NCBI GenBank assembly: GCA_021783995.1
Contig: JAJXTH010000014.1
Span: 1-52,528, forward strand
Source: Pseudomonadota bacterium
GTDB taxonomy: Bacteria; Pseudomonadota; Gammaproteobacteria; Burkholderiales; Gallionellaceae
Length of the DNA stretch: 52,528 bases
Reading direction: 5' to 3'
A program made the translations under genes and the position numbers. The notes under the pieces are model-generated. The model was given only the letters and a program-made list of their open reading frames with translations, was not told where the DNA came from and ran no database searches. Of this stretch, positions 29,572 to 50,906 are shown in pieces (within the stretch, counting starts at the first letter, position 1; each line of letters starts with the position of its first letter).

Positions 29572-29648
29572 TGGCGGAGTGGACGGGACTCGAACCCGCG
29601 ACCCCCGGCGTGACAGGCCGGTATTCTAACCAACTGAACTACCACTCC
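29572..29648 (-). tRNA. tRNA-Asp(GTC), copy 2
   Basis: A 77-nt cloverleaf with encoded CCA. The anticodon loop is CTGTCAC (GTC). The T-arm is GGTTCGAGTCC. The sequence is identical to the copy at 31700-31776. It follows tRNA-Val by 25 bp. Confidence 0.97.
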
Positions 29649-29673
29649 AAGTTTTACCTGATTACTGCTGATC

Positions 29674-29749
29674 TGGTGGGTGCTGACGGGGTCGAACCGC
29701 CGACATTCGCCTTGTAAGGGCGACGCTCTACCAACTGAGCTAAGCACCC
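29674..29749 (-). tRNA. tRNA-Val(TAC), copy 2
   Basis: A 76-nt cloverleaf with encoded CCA. The anticodon loop is CTTACAA (TAC). It is identical to 31812-31887. It starts one base after the ppiD stop codon, so it is processed from, or transcribed through, the ppiD message. Confidence 0.97.
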
Positions 29750-29750
29750 T

Positions 29751-31637
29751 TTACTGTTTGGCTGCCTCAGGTGCAGGCATCTTCACCTTGATGCTGGCCC
29801 TGCTTTTCGCATCGGCAAGGTACGCCTGCAACATCGCTTCACCCGTCATCTGACGCAACTGCTGAGCATACCTCGCACGCTTCGCTTCGTCGGGCGGCGC
29901 ACCCTCATTCACCGCATCCAGACGCACGATCATGTATCCTCCCTGCGGGGACTCTGCACCGACATACTGGGGTAATTTAGCGTTATCTGCCTGAAACAGC
30001 TGGCGCACCATCTCTGCATCCAGCGCACCGTGTTTAGTACGAGTGATCGTCTGAGCCTGAGACCAATTCAGCGCAGGTTTCGCGCCCTGCTGCAATTGAG
30101 CGAGCAGCATTTTACCCTGTTTTACGGCCATGTCCAGCGATTTTTGACGCAATATCTTCTGTCTGATTGCATCGCTTACTTCCGCCAGGCTCTGCACAGC
30201 CGCCGGCTTGTGCTCAAGCATGCGCGCCGCGACCAGCGTATTCTCCGCGACTTCGACCGCTGATGTGTTGCGATGATTCTTCATCACATCGTCGCTGAAT
30301 ATCGCCTGCAGCATCTTGGGAGTCCAGATGTCATCTTCTGCCGCACCTTTTGTAAGCCAACCGCTTTGCTGGATTTTCACTCCTGCAAGCTGCGCTGCAG
30401 GCTGAAGGGTATCGCTCTGCTCGTACACCGTATTGCTGAACTTGTCTGCAAGTTCGGCAAACATGTCTGCCGCCTTCTGTTGGCGCAGCTTCGCAAGGAT
30501 ATTGTTGCTCACTTCCGCGAATGGGGCGACCCTGGCTGGCTTGATCGCCGTCAGCTTGATGATGTGATAGCCGAATTCTGATCTGACCAGATCGCTGATT
30601 TCGCCGACCTTGAGCGCAAACACGGCATCGTCAAATGGCTTGACCATCATGCCCTTGCCGAACATGCCAAGATCTCCGCCATTCGCTGCGGAACCCGGAT
30701 CCTGCGAGTTTTTCTTCGCAATCTCGGCAAACTGCGCGGGATTCTTCTTCACTTCCTTCAGCAACTCCAAAGCCTTGGCCTTGACCGCATCCTGCTCGGA
30801 TTGAGGGGCTGTAGGCGATACCGTCAGCAATATGTGGGATGCCTGCCTCTCCTCAGGCGCGGAGAATTCAGCCTGATGCTCATCGTAGTATTTCTTGACC
30901 TCCTCGGGTTTCACATCGACCTTGGGAATCAGATCGGCGACTGAAAATTTCACATACTCGACCCTGATCTTTTCCGGAACCTGGAATTCCTTCTGGTTCT
31001 GATCGTAATAGGTCTTGATTTCTCCCTCATCAACCTTCGCTTGCGCAGTCTCCAGAGGGATCTGCGCCACGCTGACAATGCGCTGCTGCTCATTGATCGC
31101 GATTATCCTGTCCACGACCGCATTCGCGGCGTAGCCGTTCTGGGCATAGGACGCGCTCATCTGCTCCCCGATCAACTCATCTTTCAGACGCTGTTCGAAA
31201 ATCAGAGGCGACATGCTCCTTTCTGCCAGCACGCTGACATAGCGCGCCTTATCGAATTTCCCATTGACCCTGAATGCATCTATGCCAGCGATGACCTGTG
31301 CGATCTGCTCATCGGTCACCGTCAATCCGGCGGCGCGCCCATTCTCGACCAGCAACTTTTGCCCGATAAGGCTATCCAGAACAGCGCCCCTCATCTCCGG
31401 CTTGTCAAACATCGCAGGGTCAAAATTTGCACCCAGCATCTGACGCATCCTGTCCTGTTGCTGATTCAGGGCGGTGTCAAATTCCTGTTTGGTGATTTTT
31501 TCGCCGTTCACGGTGGCCGGCGCGTCGGAGCTTACAGAGTGCCTATAAGAATCCACGCCAAAAAACACGAATGGCAGAATGATCAGGAGCAATACGATCT
31601 GCACCCATCTTCTCTTCTCATGAACGAAATCAAACAT
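29751..31637 (-). CDS. ppiD: Periplasmic peptidyl-prolyl isomerase PpiD
   Basis: A 628-residue membrane-anchored periplasmic chaperone/isomerase. Short cytosolic start [11 protein letters not shown], one transmembrane helix ([14 protein letters not shown]), a SurA-like N-domain, a parvulin domain (begins [12 protein letters not shown]) at about 265-360, and a second parvulin-like region. It acts on newly exported proteins at the Sec translocon. Length matches the family (about 620). ATG 31637 follows AGGGG. Its stop codon is one base from a tRNA gene. Confidence 0.95.
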
Positions 31638-31674
31638 AGCGACCCCTGCTGTTTTGTTCGACAGATACGAAAAA

Positions 31675-31694
31675 AGGCGAACTTTCGTTCGCCT
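31675..31694 (-). terminator. Rho-independent terminator after tRNA-Asp (copy 1)
   Basis: On the minus strand AGGCGAAC-GAAA-GTTCGCCT is an 8-bp stem capped by a GAAA tetraloop and followed by a T-run. It separates the hupB/tRNA transcript from ppiD. Confidence 0.92.
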
Positions 31695-31699
31695 CAATT

Positions 31700-31776
31700 T
31701 GGCGGAGTGGACGGGACTCGAACCCGCGACCCCCGGCGTGACAGGCCGGTATTCTAACCAACTGAACTACCACTCC
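31700..31776 (-). tRNA. tRNA-Asp(GTC), copy 1
   Basis: A 77-nt tRNA with encoded CCA and a GTC anticodon, identical to 29572-29648. Confidence 0.97.
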
Positions 31777-31811
31777 AAAAATGTAACCCAGTTGTCAGTG
31801 ATCTCGCAAAC

Positions 31812-31887
31812 TGGTGGGTGCTGACGGGGTCGAACCGCCGACATTCGCCTTGTAAGGGCGACGCTCTACCAACTGAGCTAAGCACCC
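31812..31887 (-). tRNA. tRNA-Val(TAC), copy 1
   Basis: A 76-nt tRNA with encoded CCA and a TAC anticodon, identical to 29674-29749. It lies 11 bp after the hupB stop, so probably transcribed together with hupB. Confidence 0.97.
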
Positions 31888-39537: not shown

Positions 39538-42500
39538 ATGATTTTGCGTGGACCGCACCGCCCTGATCTGCTGCAATCCGAAACGCTGCCCGACATCTTT
39601 GAAGCCACTGCACGCAGGGTACCGGACAAGACTGCGCTGATTTCTGGCACACAAACCCTGAGCTATGCAGAACTCGATGTAGCCGCAGACAGACTGGCAA
39701 GCCGCCTGATTGCCAAGGGCATAGGCGCAGGTCAGATCGTGGGCTTGTGGCTGCCGCGCGGCATCGACCTCCTGACGGCACAGCTGGCCATCTGCAAGGC
39801 AGGAGCCGCCTGGCTGCCCTTCGATGCCGACACGCCTGCTGCCAGAATAAATGATTGCCTTTCGGATGCGCAAAGCCCGGGACTGCTCACCTGCCGGTCA
39901 TTTTTGCCGCAACTCGAAGGCCATGCGCTTCTCTGCTGGGCCATCGAGGACCTGCTCGAATCGGATACCCCCGATGCGCGCAGAGGCTGCGACTTCGGCC
40001 CCGACAGCCCTGCCTATGCAATATACACTTCAGGCTCGACTGGAAAGCCCAAGGGAATTCTGATCAGCCAGCGCAGCATCTGTCACTTCCTGCGCAGCGA
40101 GAACGAAGTGCTGGGCGTATTTGGTGATGACAGGGTCTATCAGGGTTTTTCCGTTGCTTTCGACATGTCATTCGAAGAGATATGGATAGCCTATCTGGTC
40201 GGCGCGACCCTCTGGCTTGCGCCTCGCGAGATCACGGGAGATCCGGATGCGCTGATCCGGGCACTCGAGGAGAATCACATCAGCGTTCTGCATGCGGTAC
40301 CCACGCTGCTTGCACTCTTCCCGCGCGACATTCCATCGCTCAGGCTGATCAATCTGGGGGGAGAAATGTGCCCGCAGGCGCTGGCCGATCGATGGGCAGC
40401 GCATGCGCTTTACAACACCTATGGCCCGACCGAGGCCACGGTATCGGCAAGCCTTGCAAGATTGCAGAAGGGGATGCCCGTCACGATAGGAAAACCGCTG
40501 CCCAACTACGGCCTGCTCGTGGTGGACAACGATCTCGGGCTTACCCCGCAAGGGGAAACAGGCGAACTCTGCATCATGGGACCTGGCGTCTCTGACGGCT
40601 ATCTCGGCCGACCCGAGCTCACTGCGGAAAAATTCCTTGCCAATCCTTATGCAAAAGGAGATCACGAAGCACGCCTTTATCGCACAGGCGATCTGGCGCG
40701 CATCGATGAATCCGGCAATGTCCATTGCCTGGGCCGCGTCGACGACCAGGTCAAGATACGCGGCTTCCGCGTCGAACTCGGAGAGATCGAGGCTGTGCTC
40801 GCGAAGGAACCCGGCATTGCAACGGCCGCAGTGATCATGAAGGAAGTTGACGGCGTGGAGCAGCTCATCGCCTATTATGTCGTTGCTGCGCAAACACCTG
40901 CATCGACACTGCGCAAGAATCTCGCTGCAAAGCTTCCGCCCTACATGGTGCCTGCTCTCTTCGAGGAAGTGAAGACGATGCCCCGTTTGACTTCAGGAAA
41001 GATAGACAGGAAGGCGCTGCGCGCGCTGGAGCTTGAAACTGCGGGCCAGCCCGATGAGTCGGACACGCCAAAGACTGATGCCGAAGCCGCGTTGTTTTCC
41101 GCCCTGCATCGCCTCTTCCCAGGACAGCAACTCAAGCGCACTGCGGATTTCTTTGCCGACCTGGGGGGACATTCGCTGCTTGCTGCGCGGCTTGTGTCCC
41201 ATTTGCGCGAGGATGCGCGTTTTGCCAACGCTACGGTGCACGACATCTATACGCACCGCCAGCTAGGCGTCATCGCAGAGACTCTGGCAAAAAAACAGCT
41301 GCAAGCCATCGACATCGCCATCGACATCGCAGAAACGCCCAGACTGCGCCGCATCCTTTGCAGCCTTGCCCAGGCCACGGCCATCCCTCCGCTGGTGTGC
41401 CTCAAGATGGCGCAATGGCTCTCCCCCTTCTTCACCTATCACTATTTCACGGGCGATCCTGGCGACACGATGACGCGCGCGATATTCGCATCTCTGCTCG
41501 TCTACCTGATCGCCAATGTCGGCAGTTTCTTCTTCGCGATCTCGGCAAAATGGCTGATCGTGGGCAGGGTCAAGGCCGGGCGCTATCCGCTTTGGGGCTT
41601 CATGTATTTCCGCTGGTGGCTCGCGGACCGGATATGCGAGGTTCCTCCGCGCCATCTCCTGTCGGGCTCATCGCTCAACGGAATGTATCTGAGGGCGCTC
41701 GGCGCAAAAGTCGGCAAGGACACGCTGATAGGCGCGCTGTCGATACGCGCGCCCGACCTGCTCGAAATCGGCAACGGCGTCTCCATAGGCTCATCCGTGA
41801 ACCTGGAAAACGTCAGGGTCGAAGGCAATGAACTGATCATGGGCAGTATCAGCATAGGCGATGAAGCCGTGGTCGACTCCTATGCAGTGATGGAAGGAGA
41901 AAGCTCGATAGCCGAATATGCGCATCTTGGCGGCCTGTCCTCGCTTGCTGCCGGACAACATGTGCCCCCTGCGCAGCGCTGGGAAGGCGCGCCTGCGCGT
42001 TTCTCGGCCGCCACTGACATCCAGGGAAGAAGGCCACGCGTTGCGGTATCAAGACTGCGCACTGCGATGGAAGCGCTGTTCTATTTCCTGGGGGCGAACC
42101 TGGTTGCGATCGTGTTCTTCCTGCCGGTGTTCCCGAGCTTCATCCTGATAGACTGGCTGGATGGCCGCTGGCTCAATATCGCCGATGCGCATGTCGCGCC
42201 ATTCAGCGCATTCTTCACCTATCTCACACTGTCGATACCCGCGAGCGCCGTGCTCGTGATCGCAACCATACTTGCCTCGACAGGATTCCGCTATCTCGTC
42301 CTGCCCAGGCTCAAGGAGGGAAGCTGGTCCGTGCACAGCATGGTTTATTTCAGCAAGTGGCTGAGCAATCAGATACAGGAATCCAGCCTTTTTGCGCTGC
42401 ACGGCCTTTATGCCACGGTGTATGCACCCTGGTGGTATCGCCTGCTCGGCGCCCGCGTAGGCAAGGGGACCGAGATTTCGACAGCCCTGGGCGTTGTGCC

Positions 42501-43488
42501 TGACATGCTTACCATAGGCACAGACAGTTTCGTCGCCGACGGCGTGATGTTGGGCGATGAACGCATCGAAGGCGGATGGATGAGCTTGCGCCCCACCGTC
42601 ATCGGCAACCGCACCTTCCTCGGAAACGGCGCTTTCGTGCCAGACGGCAGCATATTGCCTGACGATGTGCTGATCGGCGTGCAATCCGGCGTACCCGAAA
42701 ACGGGCGCATGAAACCCGGCGACACCTGGGTCGGCAACCTTCCCATCATCTTGCCGGCACGCGAACAATTCGAAGGATATGACAAGCGCCTCACATTCGA
42801 GCCCGGCATCTTGCGACGCATCAGCCGCAGCATCGTGGAAGGGCTGCGCATCGTGATGCCCATGGCTGTGGTCATCGCGGTAGGATATCTCACGGTCGCA
42901 CTGGTGATGCCGCTTGCAAGCGCGGGGCTGTTCTGGGATACCGTGATCGCACTTTCCCTGGCAGGCTTCCTCTACGGCATTGGCTCTTTTCTCTTCGTCG
43001 TTCTTTTGAAGTGGCTGATCATCGGCCGCTACCGTCCACGCTCGGTACCCATGTGGACCTCGTTCGTCTGGGGAAGCGAGGCGATCACGAATCTCTACGA
43101 ATCCATAGCAGTACCGAATTTCGTGGGCTTCCTGCGTGGCACCCCCATGCTGCCTCCCTGCATGCGACTTTTGGGCTGCAGAATGGGCAAGGGCATCTAC
43201 ATGGACACGACCTTCCTCACCGAGTTCGACTGCGTGAGCATAGGCGACTACGCTGCGCTCAATGGATGGAGCGGCCCGCAGACCCATCTCTTCGAAGACC
43301 GCATCATGAAGATAGGCGATGTGAGCATAGGCCGCGGCGTCACGTTAGGCCCCCGCGCCATCATCCTTTATGGCGCGCACATAGGCGATGGCGCAACGCT
43401 GGGTCCGTTGACGCTGATCCTGAAGGGCGAGAACATTCCGGGCGGAACGCGCTGGACAGGGTCGCCCTCAGAGCCGTGGAGCAGGTGA
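39538..43488 (+). CDS. Pls/PosA-type single-module NRPS, predicted poly(amino acid) synthetase
   Basis: A 1316-residue membrane NRPS. Adenylation domain, residues 15-500: A3 YTSGSTGKPKG (163-173), NTYGPTEAT (293-301), A8 YRTGD near 381, catalytic K488. Carrier domain with Ser546 in LGGHS. Then three repeats of two membrane helices plus a left-handed beta-helix-like (hexapeptide) domain at about 620-830, 840-1080 and 1100-1316. There is no classical condensation or thioesterase domain. This is the architecture of epsilon-poly-lysine synthetase (Pls) and the Pls/PosA family, in which the three tandem C-terminal domains join activated monomers and set chain length. Aligning by hand to GrsA gives a code D-M-E-H-I-L-T-V-S-K; Glu at position 239 hints at a basic monomer, weakly. 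A weak ribosome site precedes the ATG. Confidence 0.88.
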   Translation: MILRGPHRPDLLQSETLPDIFEATARRVPDKTALISGTQTLSYAELDVAADRLASRLIAKGIGAGQIVGLWLPRGIDLLTAQLAICKAGAAWLPFDADTPAARINDCLSDAQSPGLLTCRSFLPQLEGHALLCWAIEDLLESDTPDARRGCDFGPDSPAYAIYTSGSTGKPKGILISQRSICHFLRSENEVLGVFGDDRVYQGFSVAFDMSFEEIWIAYLVGATLWLAPREITGDPDALIRALEENHISVLHAVPTLLALFPRDIPSLRLINLGGEMCPQALADRWAAHALYNTYGPTEATVSASLARLQKGMPVTIGKPLPNYGLLVVDNDLGLTPQGETGELCIMGPGVSDGYLGRPELTAEKFLANPYAKGDHEARLYRTGDLARIDESGNVHCLGRVDDQVKIRGFRVELGEIEAVLAKEPGIATAAVIMKEVDGVEQLIAYYVVAAQTPASTLRKNLAAKLPPYMVPALFEEVKTMPRLTSGKIDRKALRALELETAGQPDESDTPKTDAEAALFSALHRLFPGQQLKRTADFFADLGGHSLLAARLVSHLREDARFANATVHDIYTHRQLGVIAETLAKKQLQAIDIAIDIAETPRLRRILCSLAQATAIPPLVCLKMAQWLSPFFTYHYFTGDPGDTMTRAIFASLLVYLIANVGSFFFAISAKWLIVGRVKAGRYPLWGFMYFRWWLADRICEVPPRHLLSGSSLNGMYLRALGAKVGKDTLIGALSIRAPDLLEIGNGVSIGSSVNLENVRVEGNELIMGSISIGDEAVVDSYAVMEGESSIAEYAHLGGLSSLAAGQHVPPAQRWEGAPARFSAATDIQGRRPRVAVSRLRTAMEALFYFLGANLVAIVFFLPVFPSFILIDWLDGRWLNIADAHVAPFSAFFTYLTLSIPASAVLVIATILASTGFRYLVLPRLKEGSWSVHSMVYFSKWLSNQIQESSLFALHGLYATVYAPWWYRLLGARVGKGTEISTALGVVPDMLTIGTDSFVADGVMLGDERIEGGWMSLRPTVIGNRTFLGNGAFVPDGSILPDDVLIGVQSGVPENGRMKPGDTWVGNLPIILPAREQFEGYDKRLTFEPGILRRISRSIVEGLRIVMPMAVVIAVGYLTVALVMPLASAGLFWDTVIALSLAGFLYGIGSFLFVVLLKWLIIGRYRPRSVPMWTSFVWGSEAITNLYESIAVPNFVGFLRGTPMLPPCMRLLGCRMGKGIYMDTTFLTEFDCVSIGDYAALNGWSGPQTHLFEDRIMKIGDVSIGRGVTLGPRAIILYGAHIGDGATLGPLTLILKGENIPGGTRWTGSPSEPWSR

Positions 43489-44015
43489 TGCGCATCGAAG
43501 CCACAATCTGGCCTGCCAGCCCGACAAGCTTTGATCGCAACGGCATTGCGCTGATCCTGCTCGATATTGCCGCATGCAGAGCCGCTGCCCGCAAAGAGGC
43601 GAGAGAAGTCTTGAAAAATTCGGCAGCCCGACTGCTTGGCAAGGCCGGGATCGAACTCATCGAGACGCCACACGGGCCCAGGCTAGACGAAAGCGGCATC
43701 CATGTCAGCCTGAGCTATGTTGCGGACAAGGCGCTGATCGGCCTTTCGCACGCAGGACCGGTGGGTGTGGACATCGTCAGGATAGAACCCCTGCCCGGGA
43801 TCGATGCTCTGGCGAAGATCTATCTGCCATCATGCAGCGTGAGCAGTGATGCCGATTTTGCGCTGGCATGGGCAAGGATGGAAGCCTGCTGCAAGGCGCT
43901 GAATCTGCCGCTTGCCGAAATAGATGATGAAAGGAAAAACGCATATGCCGGATGCGACCTTCCGGAGTGCATGCAGATCGATGGCTACAGAATGGCTGTC
44001 GCGCTAGCGGCCTGA
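43488..44015 (+). CDS. 4'-phosphopantetheinyl transferase (Sfp-like)
   Basis: A 175-residue enzyme expected to put the phosphopantetheine arm on Ser546 of the upstream NRPS. The Mg2+-binding motif is VGVDIVRIEP, and WARMEACCKAL corresponds to the second Sfp motif (W-x-x-K-E-x-x-x-K), with Met in place of the first Lys. It is shorter than Sfp (about 220 residues). The ATG overlaps the NRPS stop by one base (TGATG), so the two are translationally coupled. The 3' end overlaps the convergent atpG by 12 bp. Confidence 0.8.
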   Translation: MRIEATIWPASPTSFDRNGIALILLDIAACRAAARKEAREVLKNSAARLLGKAGIELIETPHGPRLDESGIHVSLSYVADKALIGLSHAGPVGVDIVRIEPLPGIDALAKIYLPSCSVSSDADFALAWARMEACCKALNLPLAEIDDERKNAYAGCDLPECMQIDGYRMAVALAA

Positions 44016-44849
44016 TCCGGCCAGCAATTCATAACCCGCGATCACATCGAAGAGCTCCTCATCAATGCCTGTCTGACGCAGGTGATGAAAGTCCTGTTTC
44101 AGCGCATCGAGCAGCTCGTCTATGTTCTTTTCGGCGCGCCGCATCGCATTCAGGCGCGCCGCATTTTCGCTGGCCAGCGATTCTGTGGCTGCGCGAAACA
44201 GCGAGATGAAGATATATTCGCGAATCAGCGCCTCCAGCGTTCCCATTCCGATCACTTCAGGCAGATTTCTCGACGGCCATTGTTGCCTTAAGAGTTCACC
44301 CTGCCATGTCTCATCGAGAGGCAAGAGTCGCTGCATCACGGGTTCATAGGCCGAGTCAGCCTGAGGCTTGTTGTGGAATAGATACACCTGATCCGAATCG
44401 ATCGCGGAGAGTATGCGCCCTGTGATCCCGGTGATCGCCGCGATCGAATTCGGCGCAGCGAAAATCTTTTCTATCCCGAAGTCGGCAAGGTATCCCTGGA
44501 TGCGCTCGCCGACCACGAAAACATGCTTCTCCAGCGTGTTGCCCTTGAGATTTGCAACAACGAAATCGGCCAGCACCTCGTTGTACTGTCCCGCCAGCCC
44601 CTGGTCTGCGCCGAACACCACAACGCACAGCGACTTCGGGCTTGGCTGATATGCCTTGACCGCATTTTGACTCTGCAGGCAGGCGACCAGCCCGAGCTCC
44701 ACAGTGTGATAATAATCGTCAAGCGAGATCACCGCGCGCTCATACTGCGCGATGCTGGACGCAGCAAGCGCCTTCATGGTGCGCACCACAGAACCAAGCT
44801 CGGTTGCGCTGTCTATCTTGTGACGCAGGCTTTCGACGGTTTCGCTCAT
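44004..44849 (-). CDS. atpG: N-type ATPase gamma subunit
   Basis: A 281-residue central stalk subunit. The N-terminal helix has [29 protein letters not shown], and the C-terminal helix carries [17 protein letters not shown]. Both form the rotating coiled coil. Last gene of the atpDCQRBEFAG operon; the start overlaps the atpA stop by 4 bp. Sequence is divergent from housekeeping F-type gamma, as in other N-type operons. Confidence 0.88.
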
Positions 44850-46351
44850 TCTGTCTGGAACGGTGACAGTGCATTGCGCGCGATCTGCAATATCGATTCG
44901 CGATCGCGGTCATCCAGCCTCTCGACGGAGAAGAGTCGCTTGACGATTCCCTCTGGAATGTCAGCCTTGATAAGCGCGAATTCAGCATCGCGCATTTTTT
45001 CCAGCGGAATGCTGTCAAAGAGCCCTGCAGTCAGCGCAAGCAGAATGACGATCTGCGCCGGCACGGCAACAGGGGAAAACTCGGGCTGCATGAGGCAGCT
45101 GCGGATGCGCTTGCCGTGCTCTATGATCTTGCGGGTGCTCTCGTCGAGCTTGGTACCGAAGCGCGCAAAGGTTTCCAGCTCCTCGAACTGCGCATAGGCG
45201 AGCTTCAGGTCGCCTGCAACGGCAAGATATGCCGATCGCTGCGCCTTGCCTCCCACCCTTGAAACGGATTTTCCCACATCGACCGCAGGAAGGAGGCCCA
45301 GTTCGAAGAGTCTTGGGGAAAGATATATCTGCCCGTCGGTGATCGAGATCAGATTGGTCGGAATGTAGGCTGCCATGTTCTGGGCCTCCGTCTCTATGAT
45401 GGGCAATGCGGTGAGAGAGCCTCCGCCCAGTTCCTCTCTCAGATGGGTCGCGCGCTCGAGCAGCCTCGAATGTATGTAGAAGATGTCTCCGGGAAATGCC
45501 TCACGTCCGGGTGGGCGTCTCAGTAACAGCGAAAGCTCGCGGTAGGCGCGCGCATGATTGGTCAGGTCGTCATACACGATCAGCACGTCTCGCCCCGCTT
45601 CCATGAAATGCTCCGCGATGCTGGTCGCAGCATAGGGCGCAATATAGGCAAGCCCAGGAGGATCGTTACCCTCGGTCACCACGACCACGGTATATTCCAT
45701 CGCGCCGTTTTCGCGCAGGCTGGCTATCGTTTTTGCAACAGAGGATGCGCGCTGCCCGATCGCGCAATAAACGCACAGCACATCGCGCTGGTTCAAGATC
45801 GTGTCCACCGCGATTGCGGTCTTTCCGGTCTGCCTGTCGCCCAGTATCAGCTCGCGCTGCCCGCGCCCTATGGGCACCAGCGCATCCACGACCTTGATGC
45901 CTGTCTGCAGCGGCGCGGTGACCGGCGCGCGATCCATGATGTGGGGTGCAGGCCGTTCTATCGGCAATCGCTTGTCGAATATCACCTCGCCCTTTTCGTC
46001 CAGCGGACGCCCGAGCGGACTCACCACGCGACCTATGAGGCCGAACCCCACAGGCACATCCATCACATGCCCGCGCCGTTCGACTTCCGCACCCGCGTGC
46101 AACTGCGAGTAGTCGCCCAGCAGAACGGCGCCAATCTCGTCTTCATCGATGTTGAATGCGATGCCGTAAAGGTCCCCAGGGAATTTCAGCACTTCCTCGA
46201 AGCCCACGCCAGGCAAGCCTGAAACCCTGGCAATGCCTGTGGAAAGGCTCTCGACAGCCCCTGTTTCCTTCGCCCGCAAGTGCGGCGCGAAGTCCTGCTG
46301 CGCATGATCTATCGCGGCAAAGGCATCATCGAATGCATACTTGAGTTTCAT
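44846..46351 (-). CDS. atpA: N-type ATPase alpha subunit
   Basis: A 501-residue F1 alpha-type subunit. The P-loop is [11 protein letters not shown]. Other signatures are [21 protein letters not shown] and the alpha-specific [21 protein letters not shown]. It forms the regulatory nucleotide sites of the F1-like head. It overlaps atpF by 4 bp and atpG by 4 bp. Confidence 0.95.
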
Positions 46352-47091
46352 CGATCAGACCCGCTCTGCGCCTTGAACAGCGCATCGACTTCCTTTTCCA
46401 GCATGCCGAGATAGTCGTCCACGCTCCATGCGATCTTCTGCCCATGCGCAACAAGCTCGATGCCCGAAACAAGCTCCGGCACAACCTCATAGCTTATTCC
46501 TACCGATGAAAATTCCCCGATCGCTTCCACTATCCTGGCCCGCGCGGTCTCTGGCAATTCGAATGCGCTCTTGACCAGAATTCCGGTCAGGTGCTTCTTT
46601 TCATCTGAGTTCATGGACTTCAGGTGCACGATGAAAACGTCCACCATGCGTTCTTCAAGAGCGGCGTCTGCAAGATCCTCGAGCGTCTTTTTCGCAATTG
46701 CGAGCACGCTTGCCTGCGTGCGCCTCGAAATCTCCCGCGACAGCGACTGATACTCGTCATCGAGCGATTTCCGGTTCTTCTCGCGCATGCTTGTAGCGTC
46801 GCTTCTCGCTTCGGACATCAGCTTCTCGCGCAATGCCGCCGCATCATCGATCGTCTTACGCAACAACTCGTCGCGCATGCCTTCAAGCTCATCGTTCTTG
46901 CGCCTGTATTCCTCGCGCTCGGCCAAAGCCTCCGTCTGCTTCTCCGCCGCATCGGCAAGCTCGGCTGCGATGCGTTTCTCGCGCGCGTCGAGCGCCTTCA
47001 ATATCGGCGCATACAAAAAACGCTTCAACAGCCATACCAGGATGAGGAAGTTGAATATCTGAGCGATAACGGTGAACCAGTCTATCAGCAT
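46348..47091 (-). CDS. atpF: N-type ATPase subunit b with fused delta-like tail
   Basis: A 247-residue stator subunit. One N-terminal membrane helix ([19 protein letters not shown]) is followed by a long charged coiled coil (35-160). A folded tail (about 165-240: [24 protein letters not shown] and [22 protein letters not shown]) resembles the C-terminal part of subunit delta. A separate delta gene is missing from the operon. Ordinary b is about 156 residues, so the extra length fits the b-delta arrangement of N-type ATPases. Confidence 0.88.
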
Positions 47092-47092
47092 G

Positions 47093-47377
47093 TCATTTTG
47101 CAGCCTGTGCTATCACATGATTCCAGAACGGATTCGCAAAGATGAGTATCATCGCAACCACGAAGCAGTAGATCGCAATCGACTCTATCATTGCAAGCCC
47201 CACGAACAGGGTTCTGGTGATGGTGCTGGCCGCATCCGGCTGCTGCGCAAGAGAGCTCAATGCCGTAGAGACCGCTCGCCCCTCGCCCAAGGCTGGGCCT
47301 ATTCCGCCTATCGCTATCGTCAGTCCCGCGGTGATGATCGATGCCATCGCAATTAGTGTAGAACTGTCCATGTTCAT
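47093..47377 (-). CDS. atpE: N-type ATPase rotor subunit c
   Basis: A 94-residue hairpin of two membrane helices. It has carboxylates on both helices: E32 (GPALGEGRAV) and E65 with S66 and Y70 (MIESIAIY). The equivalent Na+ c-subunits have Gln at 32. N-type c-rings carry this paired-Glu pattern; the ring of Burkholderia pseudomallei was reported as 17-membered and proton-specific. Coupling ion here is therefore uncertain. Confidence 0.93.
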   Translation of the reverse strand: MNMDSSTLIAMASIITAGLTIAIGGIGPALGEGRAVSTALSSLAQQPDAASTITRTLFVGLAMIESIAIYCFVVAMILIFANPFWNHVIAQAAK

Positions 47378-48048
47378 GCCTCCTCCCTGGCTCTGGTTGC
47401 CGCCGCGATATATACGGTGGCGAGTATCGTGAAAATATAGGCTTGCACCAGCCCGGTCAGAAGGTCCAGCAAGTTCATCAGGACCGGGAAGATGAAAGGC
47501 GTGACGGTCAAGAGGATCGCGATGACCATCGAACCGCTCATGATGTTGCCGAAAAGTCGCACCGCCAGCGCGAGCGTGCGCGACAATTCGCCTATGATGT
47601 TGAACGGCAGCATCAGCAGCGTAGGCTTCAGATAGGAGGCTAAATAAGGCTTCAAGCCGCTCTCCATGATGCCGAAAGCCGGCACCGCGATGAACACGCA
47701 GATCGCAAGCCCCGCCGTCGTCGAAAGGGAGCCTGTCGGGGGCTCATAGCCCGGAAATATTTCGCACAGGTTTGAAAAAGAAACGAAAAGAAAAAGCGTG
47801 CCCAGAAACCCGAGATATTTTTCCGGATGCGCAAGCCCTACTTCCTCGATCTGCTTGCTGGTCATGGTCACGATGACTTCGAGCACGCTTTGCGCACGAG
47901 AGATGCGCATGCCATCCGTAAGCCGCTTCGTGACCAACCTTGATACGACGGTCAGTACAAGCATCAGTCCCCATGTCGTCAGGATCGTGAGATTGAGCTT
48001 GAAAAATCCGTGCTGCCAGAAGATGACCTCGTCTGAACTAAGGTGCAT
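47374..48048 (-). CDS. atpB: N-type ATPase subunit a
   Basis: A 224-residue membrane stator with five or six helices. The essential Arg of the ion half-channel is in the LSRTLALAVRLFGNIMSG helix. ATG 48048 after GAGGGGAGAG is preferred to an upstream open frame. It overlaps atpE by 4 bp. Confidence 0.93.
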   Translation of the reverse strand: MHLSSDEVIFWQHGFFKLNLTILTTWGLMLVLTVVSRLVTKRLTDGMRISRAQSVLEVIVTMTSKQIEEVGLAHPEKYLGFLGTLFLFVSFSNLCEIFPGYEPPTGSLSTTAGLAICVFIAVPAFGIMESGLKPYLASYLKPTLLMLPFNIIGELSRTLALAVRLFGNIMSGSMVIAILLTVTPFIFPVLMNLLDLLTGLVQAYIFTILATVYIAAATRAREEA

Positions 48049-48313
48049 GGCTCTCCCCTCTTGGCAGCCTGATCGCGATGAAACGCGCGATGACAAAGCC
48101 TGAAAGACAGGCAGCAATGCGCCTCCAGTCGCCATTCGCGACGAAATAGAATCCGCACAATGTCACTGCGCTGCGCAGCAGCAGGCTGCCAATGAACCAG
48201 AGCGCAGGCCTGGCGGACGTCAGACCCTTTTTCACTGTCCACCAGAGCCCCCCGAAGAAGAAAATGCCCAATGCAATGCCTGAAGACAGCGCAGCGATCA
48301 GATGTTCATTCAT
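48038..48313 (-). CDS. atpR: N-type ATPase accessory subunit AtpR
   Basis: A 91-residue protein with three hydrophobic helices (LIAALSSGIALGIFFFGGLWW; LWFIGSLLLRSAVTLCGFYFV; a shorter third). Found only in N-type operons. Conserved Arg residues in its second and third helices have been proposed to interact with the c-ring. It overlaps atpB by 11 bp and atpQ by 4 bp. Confidence 0.85.
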   Translation of the reverse strand: MNEHLIAALSSGIALGIFFFGGLWWTVKKGLTSARPALWFIGSLLLRSAVTLCGFYFVANGDWRRIAACLSGFVIARFIAIRLPRGESHAP

Positions 48314-48604
48314 TTCTTTTCCCCTGCATGGATTTCCCGGTTTTCCTTTGCCACCCAATGCCACGCATTCAGACAGCCTGTCGCAAGTCCCGCAATCAGA
48401 AGCGTAAGGGTCCACGAATGTTTCCCCGGATAGTTCTCATCCAGCCAGATTCCTAGCGCCGTTCCCAGCACGGTCGGCACCGCCACAGACCAGCCTACCA
48501 GGCCCATCATTCCAAGGCCAGACCAGATGGTCACGCTCTGCTCCGCCTTCAGCTTGCGCTTTTCCTGCTCGCCCACCCTGCGCGCGAAGTTTTCTTCCGG
48601 TTCT

Positions 48605-48612
<8 letters not shown>
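48310..48612 (-). CDS. atpQ: N-type ATPase accessory subunit AtpQ (AtpI-like)
   Basis: A 100-residue two-helix membrane protein related to AtpI, which helps c-ring assembly. Helices: WSGLGMMGLVGWSVAVPTVL and WTLTLLIAGLATGCLNAWHWV. No good ATG exists; GTG 48612 with GGAG 7 bases upstream, overlapping the atpC stop by 8 bp, gives VAEEPEENFARRVGEQEKRK as a normal N-terminus. Confidence 0.82.

Positions 48613-50906
<2,294 letters not shown>

Follow-up and report, generated by a model that had tools for sequence, protein, structure and literature searches.

A predicted two-gene operon for delta-poly-L-ornithine in a Gallionella-like bacterium: a PosA-type synthetase and its overlapping phosphopantetheinyl transferase gene

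Which polymer is made by a synthetase that carries a single adenylation domain, a single carrier and no condensation domain, and is the phosphopantetheinyl transferase gene that overlaps its stop codon there to serve it? Both questions are raised by a locus in a 52,528-nucleotide stretch of DNA from a member of the Gallionellaceae (the window hereafter). We propose, with a probability of roughly 0.82, that the two genes form an operon for delta-poly-L-ornithine. The relevant features are the following:

39538..43488, + strand: Pls/PosA-type synthetase of 1316 aa, predicted delta-poly-L-ornithine synthetase (posA orthologue), from TIGR02353 and identity to PosA
39598..41001, + strand: adenylation domain, about residues 21-488, from Pfam AMP-binding and AMP-binding_C, aligned to 8g95
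41119..41280, + strand: carrier domain, residues 528-581, with phosphopantetheine Ser546, from PF00550
41368..43467, + strand: terminal membrane domain, three times a helical hairpin and left-handed beta-helix, from TIGR02353, hhalign, AlphaFold2 and conservation
43488..44015, + strand: phosphopantetheinyl transferase of 175 aa with an Sfp-like fold, from sequence, model, PDB match and conserved residues
38189-39532: DUF2252 gene, oriented divergently from posA, the two upstream regions overlapping
44004-50382, - strand: alternate F1F0 ATPase operon, named by NCBIfam

The synthetase frame runs from an ATG at 39538 to a TGA that ends at 43488, and Pfam reads it as AMP-binding (21-356), AMP-binding_C (416-488), PP-binding (528-581; 21.8 bits vs. 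a cut-off of 20.8) and Hexapep (1261-1294), with neither a condensation nor a thioesterase domain in the scan; the initial annotation had described exactly this, one adenylation domain and one carrier with Ser at position 546 and neither of the other two domains. The adenylation-carrier-terminal order is a trait of the Pls/PosA family, common to Acinetobacter baumannii PosA (PMC10522769; PDB 8g95-8g98) and to the Streptomyces epsilon-poly-L-lysine synthetase Pls (A-core PDB 7wew), both of which also share the terminal domain family, and Ser546 is kept in all aligned rows but the fragment L105. The TIGR02353 search suggested at the outset places residues 611-1310 well above the NCBI curated cut-off (745.7 vs. 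423.1 bits) for what NCBI describes as 'Pls/PosA family non-ribosomal peptide synthetase', in agreement with the early expectation of a Pls/PosA-type enzyme that makes a poly(amino acid). An intact homologue at 57-89% identity (best segment) is present in every one of the 80 loci retained from 429, and chance is therefore ruled out for this frame: the synthetase is real and mostly ordinary, a PosA orthologue of an enzyme type already known.

Alignment to 8g95 gives an adenylation pocket of D209, M210, E213, H252, N272, G274, T294, V302, S303 and K488, and this string, DMEHNGTVSK, equals at ten of ten positions the code printed for A. baumannii PosA, which in vitro makes delta-poly-L-ornithine of 7-12 units (PMC10522769). 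PosA is also the nearest solved A-core, at 549 bits vs. 218 for the epsilon-poly-L-lysine synthase, and the full-length proteins share 54.5% identity across 100% of the query (62.0% in the A part, 44.4% in T and 52.7% in C). A quick LG+G4 tree of 71 of the 137 sequences, with near-identical rows and L105, L122 and L134 omitted and L106 lacking a usable match, places the window's enzyme and A. baumannii PosA in one 45-row clade (SH-aLRT 100), the long branches flagged by the tree tool lying outside it. The same pocket recurs in 97 of 137 aligned sequences (the window and 136 of 137 loci, again without L106, with five pairs being the same protein from two collections) and DMEHNGSVSK in three; among the 80 named-genome loci the counts are 78 and 2. 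The census discriminates, since Azospirillum and Rhizobium loci carry DLED types and Streptomyces and Kitasatospora loci DAESIGTVVK or DFECLSAVTK.

Taken together, pocket identity, homology to PosA and the common clade lead us to predict ornithine as the substrate, and by analogy with PosA's chain lengths the product would be a short delta-poly-L-ornithine, demonstrated for the A. baumannii enzyme and predicted for this one. The synthetase is thus probably a cationic homopoly(amino acid) synthetase whose polymer is not new: a new polymer had been held plausible initially, but with a pocket identical to that of PosA the known one is the better guess and novelty is disfavoured. That the same machine makes a different polymer, of lysine, diaminobutyrate or an unreported amino acid, is quite improbable; relatives with other pockets do occur, even in the window's genus (L096 and L097, DFDHFGTITK), a pocket code by itself is no substrate assay, and PosA weakly activates lysine, yet it gave no lysine polymer, and the Met218 position is occupied by Ala in lysine-type enzymes and by Phe in diaminopropionate types (PMC10522769).

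Those two further TIGR02353 synthetases, from genomes G059 and G126, have an Asp at the site of PosA's essential Glu221 and perhaps take a shorter diamino acid; L096 has a transferase-like frame directly downstream, and G126 additionally carries the PosA-type L087. Separately, downstream of the DFECLSAVTK synthetase of Streptomyces sp. NBC_01527 (L140) lie genes for diaminobutyrate transaminase and aspartate kinase, neighbors that fit a diaminobutyrate polymer.

The ATG of the transferase, at 43488, begins in the last base of the synthetase stop codon (TGATG), with GGAG six bases ahead of it, so that the one-base overlap first described is exact in its coordinates. Against Pfam ACPS (PF01648) the protein scores 19.7 bits, below the cut-off of 25; two of five relatives at the same position exceed it (L016 at 38.3 and L078 at 35.1), L007 falls short at 22.3, and L003 and L021 have no match, and the missed cut-off is a matter of score threshold rather than a functional feature. 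In Sfp the catalytic residues are Asp, Glu and Lys, and here Asp95, Trp128, Glu132 and Lys136 are kept in 63 of 64 rows, a contig end truncating the remaining one (L064). The structural model (pLDDT 95.2) has Sfp, 1qr0, as its best PDB match in Foldseek (E 2.8e-6, probability 1.00, TM 0.61 by query), and the first 33 matches, all at E ≤0.001, are without exception phosphopantetheinyl transferases. Although the window's protein differs from Sfp in its length of only 175 aa, its 17% identity and its ACPS score, the modeled fold and the shared Asp, Glu and Lys indicate that the transferase is real, as the initial annotation had it.

How general is the pairing? A transferase-like frame lies downstream of the synthetase in 63 of the 80 loci from named genomes, with no such frame adjacent in the other 17, and the commonest spacings, from mechanically chosen starts, are gaps of -4 (13/63) and -1 (9/63). 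For DMEHNGTVSK-pocket loci with at least 600 bp downstream the count is 70 of 94, and 72 of 99 overall, both including a few genes present in two collections. Across 150 genomes of the family, TIGR02353 is found in 11, the transferase in 12 and both in 10: the transferase accompanies 10 of the 11 synthetase-bearing genomes vs. 2 of the 139 without a synthetase (Fisher p 6e-13, with kinship ignored and all 11 genomes belonging to one genus). Within this set, the sole synthetase of G059 is L096, with the other pocket; G065 has its transferase about 4 kb downstream of the synthetase on the same contig and strand; in G077 the synthetase is close to the end of its contig and the transferase is on another one; in G126 (81% complete) the model from relatives finds no transferase; and G104 and G067 match the transferase model without a TIGR02353 match. 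That model also missed the RefSeq-annotated transferase that follows the synthetase in Sphingomonas L142, and it therefore undercounts in distant loci. RefSeq annotates the pair in both Rhizobium and Sphingomonas, so the pairing is already visible in databases. In the open-licence literature, including the available text of PMC10522769, PMC4361855, PMC8949500 and PMC9606270 and with subscription journals outside the scope, we found no report of a transferase gene tied to posA or of the polymer in Gallionella, and likewise none of the synthetase-transferase co-occurrence or of the single invariant histidine described below.

The overlapping frames, the adjacency and the co-occurrence uphold the initial claim of a synthetase coupled to its own transferase: the latter is probably in one operon with the synthetase and switches it on. 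Alternatively, the transferase may not be synthetase-specific, with the housekeeping AcpS or another enzyme priming PosA and the neighbor serving other carriers. In A. baumannii, posA, called a single-gene operon (PMC10522769), works with no adjacent transferase gene in the loci examined and stands alone, whereas in the window the synthetase stop is overlapped, and the two family genomes with a transferase match in place of a pair also favor such independence. Nevertheless, we consider it unlikely in view of the conserved adjacency, the frequent stop/start overlap, the co-occurrence and the same-strand copy 4 kb downstream in G065. The window's own genome (94.6% complete) argues in the same direction: PF00550 finds three carriers, PosA included, hence two others only, PF01648 finds one other transferase, a 127-aa frame, in a scan that is not exhaustive because it missed the window's own, and the model from relatives finds the window's copy only. 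An Sfp-type step is, moreover, chemically expected, since the PosA authors treated the purified enzyme with Sfp transferase and CoA before use (PMC10522769).

Other genes can follow the synthetase: in S. albulus, pls runs 4 bp into pldII, which encodes a protease that degrades the polymer (PMC4361855), and on Kitasatospora and Streptomyces plasmids (L141 and L143), whose Pls-related enzymes differ from the window's in their DAESIGTVVK pocket, an M1-family metallopeptidase gene occupies the transferase's place. A 23.8-kb contig from a viral collection (L136) carries a PosA-code synthetase and then a transferase-like frame, either a binning error or a mobile copy.

Could the pair be decayed or silent, with no product at all? 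Its patchy spread in the family and the faster divergence of the transferase (mean distance 0.64 vs. 0.32 for the synthetase over 64 rows, the two sets of distances correlating with a Spearman coefficient of 0.80, which shared ancestry alone could give) would be compatible with decay. Neither gene contains stops or frameshifts, however, and compared with L003 and L008 differences concentrate at the third codon position, at 0.38-0.40 vs. 0.06-0.11 in posA and 0.43-0.44 vs. 0.18-0.22 in the transferase gene; the pocket, Ser546, His1250 and the catalytic residues of the transferase are all retained, making a defunct pair very hard to credit.

The proposed operon of synthetase and transferase does not extend to the neighbors: the DUF2252 gene is divergent and the ATPase genes, whose gamma, alpha, F0 B, F0 A and beta subunits score above the NCBI cut-offs for the alternate type, are on the opposite strand, and a larger operon is rejected. 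By tblastn DUF2252 appears in two fetched loci only (L003 and L008) and an ATPase subunit in five (L003, L008, L089, L090 and L092, of which L089 repeats L008 and L090 repeats L003), though absence elsewhere means little because the genome-search loci have short flanks. Predicted promoter sites number 2 vs. 1.6 in shuffles and terminator sites 4 vs. 3.3. GC content (59.5% in posA, 58.5% in the transferase gene, 56.7% in the window) and a third-position GC resembling that of the neighbors give no sign of a recent foreign island, though the gene is patchy. Elsewhere in the window two copies of a tRNA-Asp/tRNA-Val pair on the - strand (29572-29749 and 31700-31887) flank a SurA_N/rotamase (PpiD-like) gene at 29751-31697.

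The way in which such a membrane domain joins amino acids in the absence of a condensation domain seems unsettled. Split in three, the terminal domain yields repeats related to one another by hhalign probability (R1-R2 99.5, R1-R3 99.1, R2-R3 97.3), its hydropathy shows seven peaks in three groups, and AlphaFold2 (48 sequences; five models with mean pLDDT from 88.6 to 71.8, the best with pTM 0.89) builds three units, each a helical hairpin followed by short beta-helix strands. Three tandem repeats with membrane helices are a trait of the Pls/PosA family; the initial annotation had proposed repeats of membrane helices and hexapeptide-like domains and had let its reading hang on tandem C-terminal domains in a structural model, and they are present at pLDDT 88.6. 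The same three-fold beta-helix model is already published for the PosA terminal domain, with the statement that experimental support is needed (PMC10522769), so the fold obtained here confirms rather than discovers. By sequence the domain matches PDB hexapeptide proteins weakly (best E 1e-7); by fold the model resembles hexapeptide acyltransferases in two comparisons, the second of which (VIA-align) covered mostly residues 88-236, the first repeat.

His1250 (codon 43285-43287), in the motif PQTHLFEDR ahead of the last coils of repeat 3, is the only histidine of the synthetase identical in all 135 aligned sequences (L105 and L134 left out, five pairs being the same protein from two collections), 35 of which lack the PosA code; Gln1248 is likewise invariant, and the stretches of repeats 1 and 2 that match the His1250 region contain no conserved histidine in the alignment. 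Hexapeptide acyltransferases are trimers of separate chains with a catalytic histidine near the interface, whereas in the window's domain three copies that have diverged sit in a single chain, separated by membrane hairpins. One invariant histidine and none conserved in repeats 1 and 2 suggest that the acyltransferase fold is pseudo-trimeric and has a single active site, in which His1250, by conservation, would be the likeliest catalytic residue. Its possible equivalence to the catalytic histidine of other hexapeptide acyltransferases gained no backing from the alignments: a frame from the window's own genome (L002), which we take from its motifs to be a serine acetyltransferase, aligns to the terminal domain only past the His1250 position, and a PDB profile search lists acetyltransferases with a match spanning His1250, while among the best five matches four have main matches that start after it.

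As a tentative joint reading, which we rate somewhat below even odds, the Pls/PosA terminal domain may be a pseudo-trimer built from one chain, with the hexapeptide acyltransferase fold, in which fusion allowed two of the three active sites to decay; His1250 and Gln1248 of repeat 3, perhaps with Asn1030 of repeat 2, would form the isopeptide bonds, the inactive repeats would hold the growing polycation, and in betaproteobacteria and some Pseudomonas the synthetase would be permanently paired with a transferase of its own that changes fast. A 2013 study by Kito et al. reportedly examined mutations in the three Pls domains and may support or exclude the one-active-site part of this reading.

The analysis shows the domain composition, the identity of the pocket, the modeled folds, and the pairing and co-occurrence of the genes, and on these we base the following scheme for the two-gene operon. 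The transferase would place phosphopantetheine on Ser546, and the adenylation domain, to judge by its identical pocket, would activate L-ornithine with ATP and load it as a thioester. In the donor-acceptor scheme known from work on Pls, the membrane domain would bond the carboxyl group of the loaded ornithine with a side-chain amine, supplied by free ornithine or by the growing chain, and repeat this step many times, with His1250 of the third repeat as the candidate catalyst. As each beta-helix follows a membrane hairpin, the soluble parts would share one side of the membrane, presumably the cytoplasmic one, and the outcome, as with PosA, would be short isopeptide polycations. As to the role in acid, metal or biofilm tolerance that the initial annotation put forward as a possibility, knockout of posA in A. 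baumannii slightly raised rather than lowered biofilm, and a synthetic 12-mer inhibited fungi but hardly the two bacteria tried (PMC10522769).

At an E-value of 1e-40, TIGR02353 is found in the 11 family genomes of 150, in 9 of 370 of the class and in 30 of 397 of the phylum, the latter two sets being limited to genomes at least 90% complete. The nearest named-genus loci are from Gallionella and Sulfuricella (order Nitrosomonadales), in line with the apparent betaproteobacterium of the initial annotation, and in genome G048 of the window's genus the terminal 700 residues of L093 are the same as those of Gallionella locus L006. The accompanying remark that no such polymer was known from betaproteobacteria loses weight, as the enzyme family is common there and a proteobacterial member, PosA, is published.

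A predicted polyornithine in Gallionella-like bacteria would widen the range of likely polycation makers. For the family as a whole, two features merit testing at the bench, the conserved transferase and the lone invariant histidine: the former is a natural partner for making active enzyme, and the latter, as the protein's only invariant histidine, offers a single-mutant test for all Pls/PosA synthetases.
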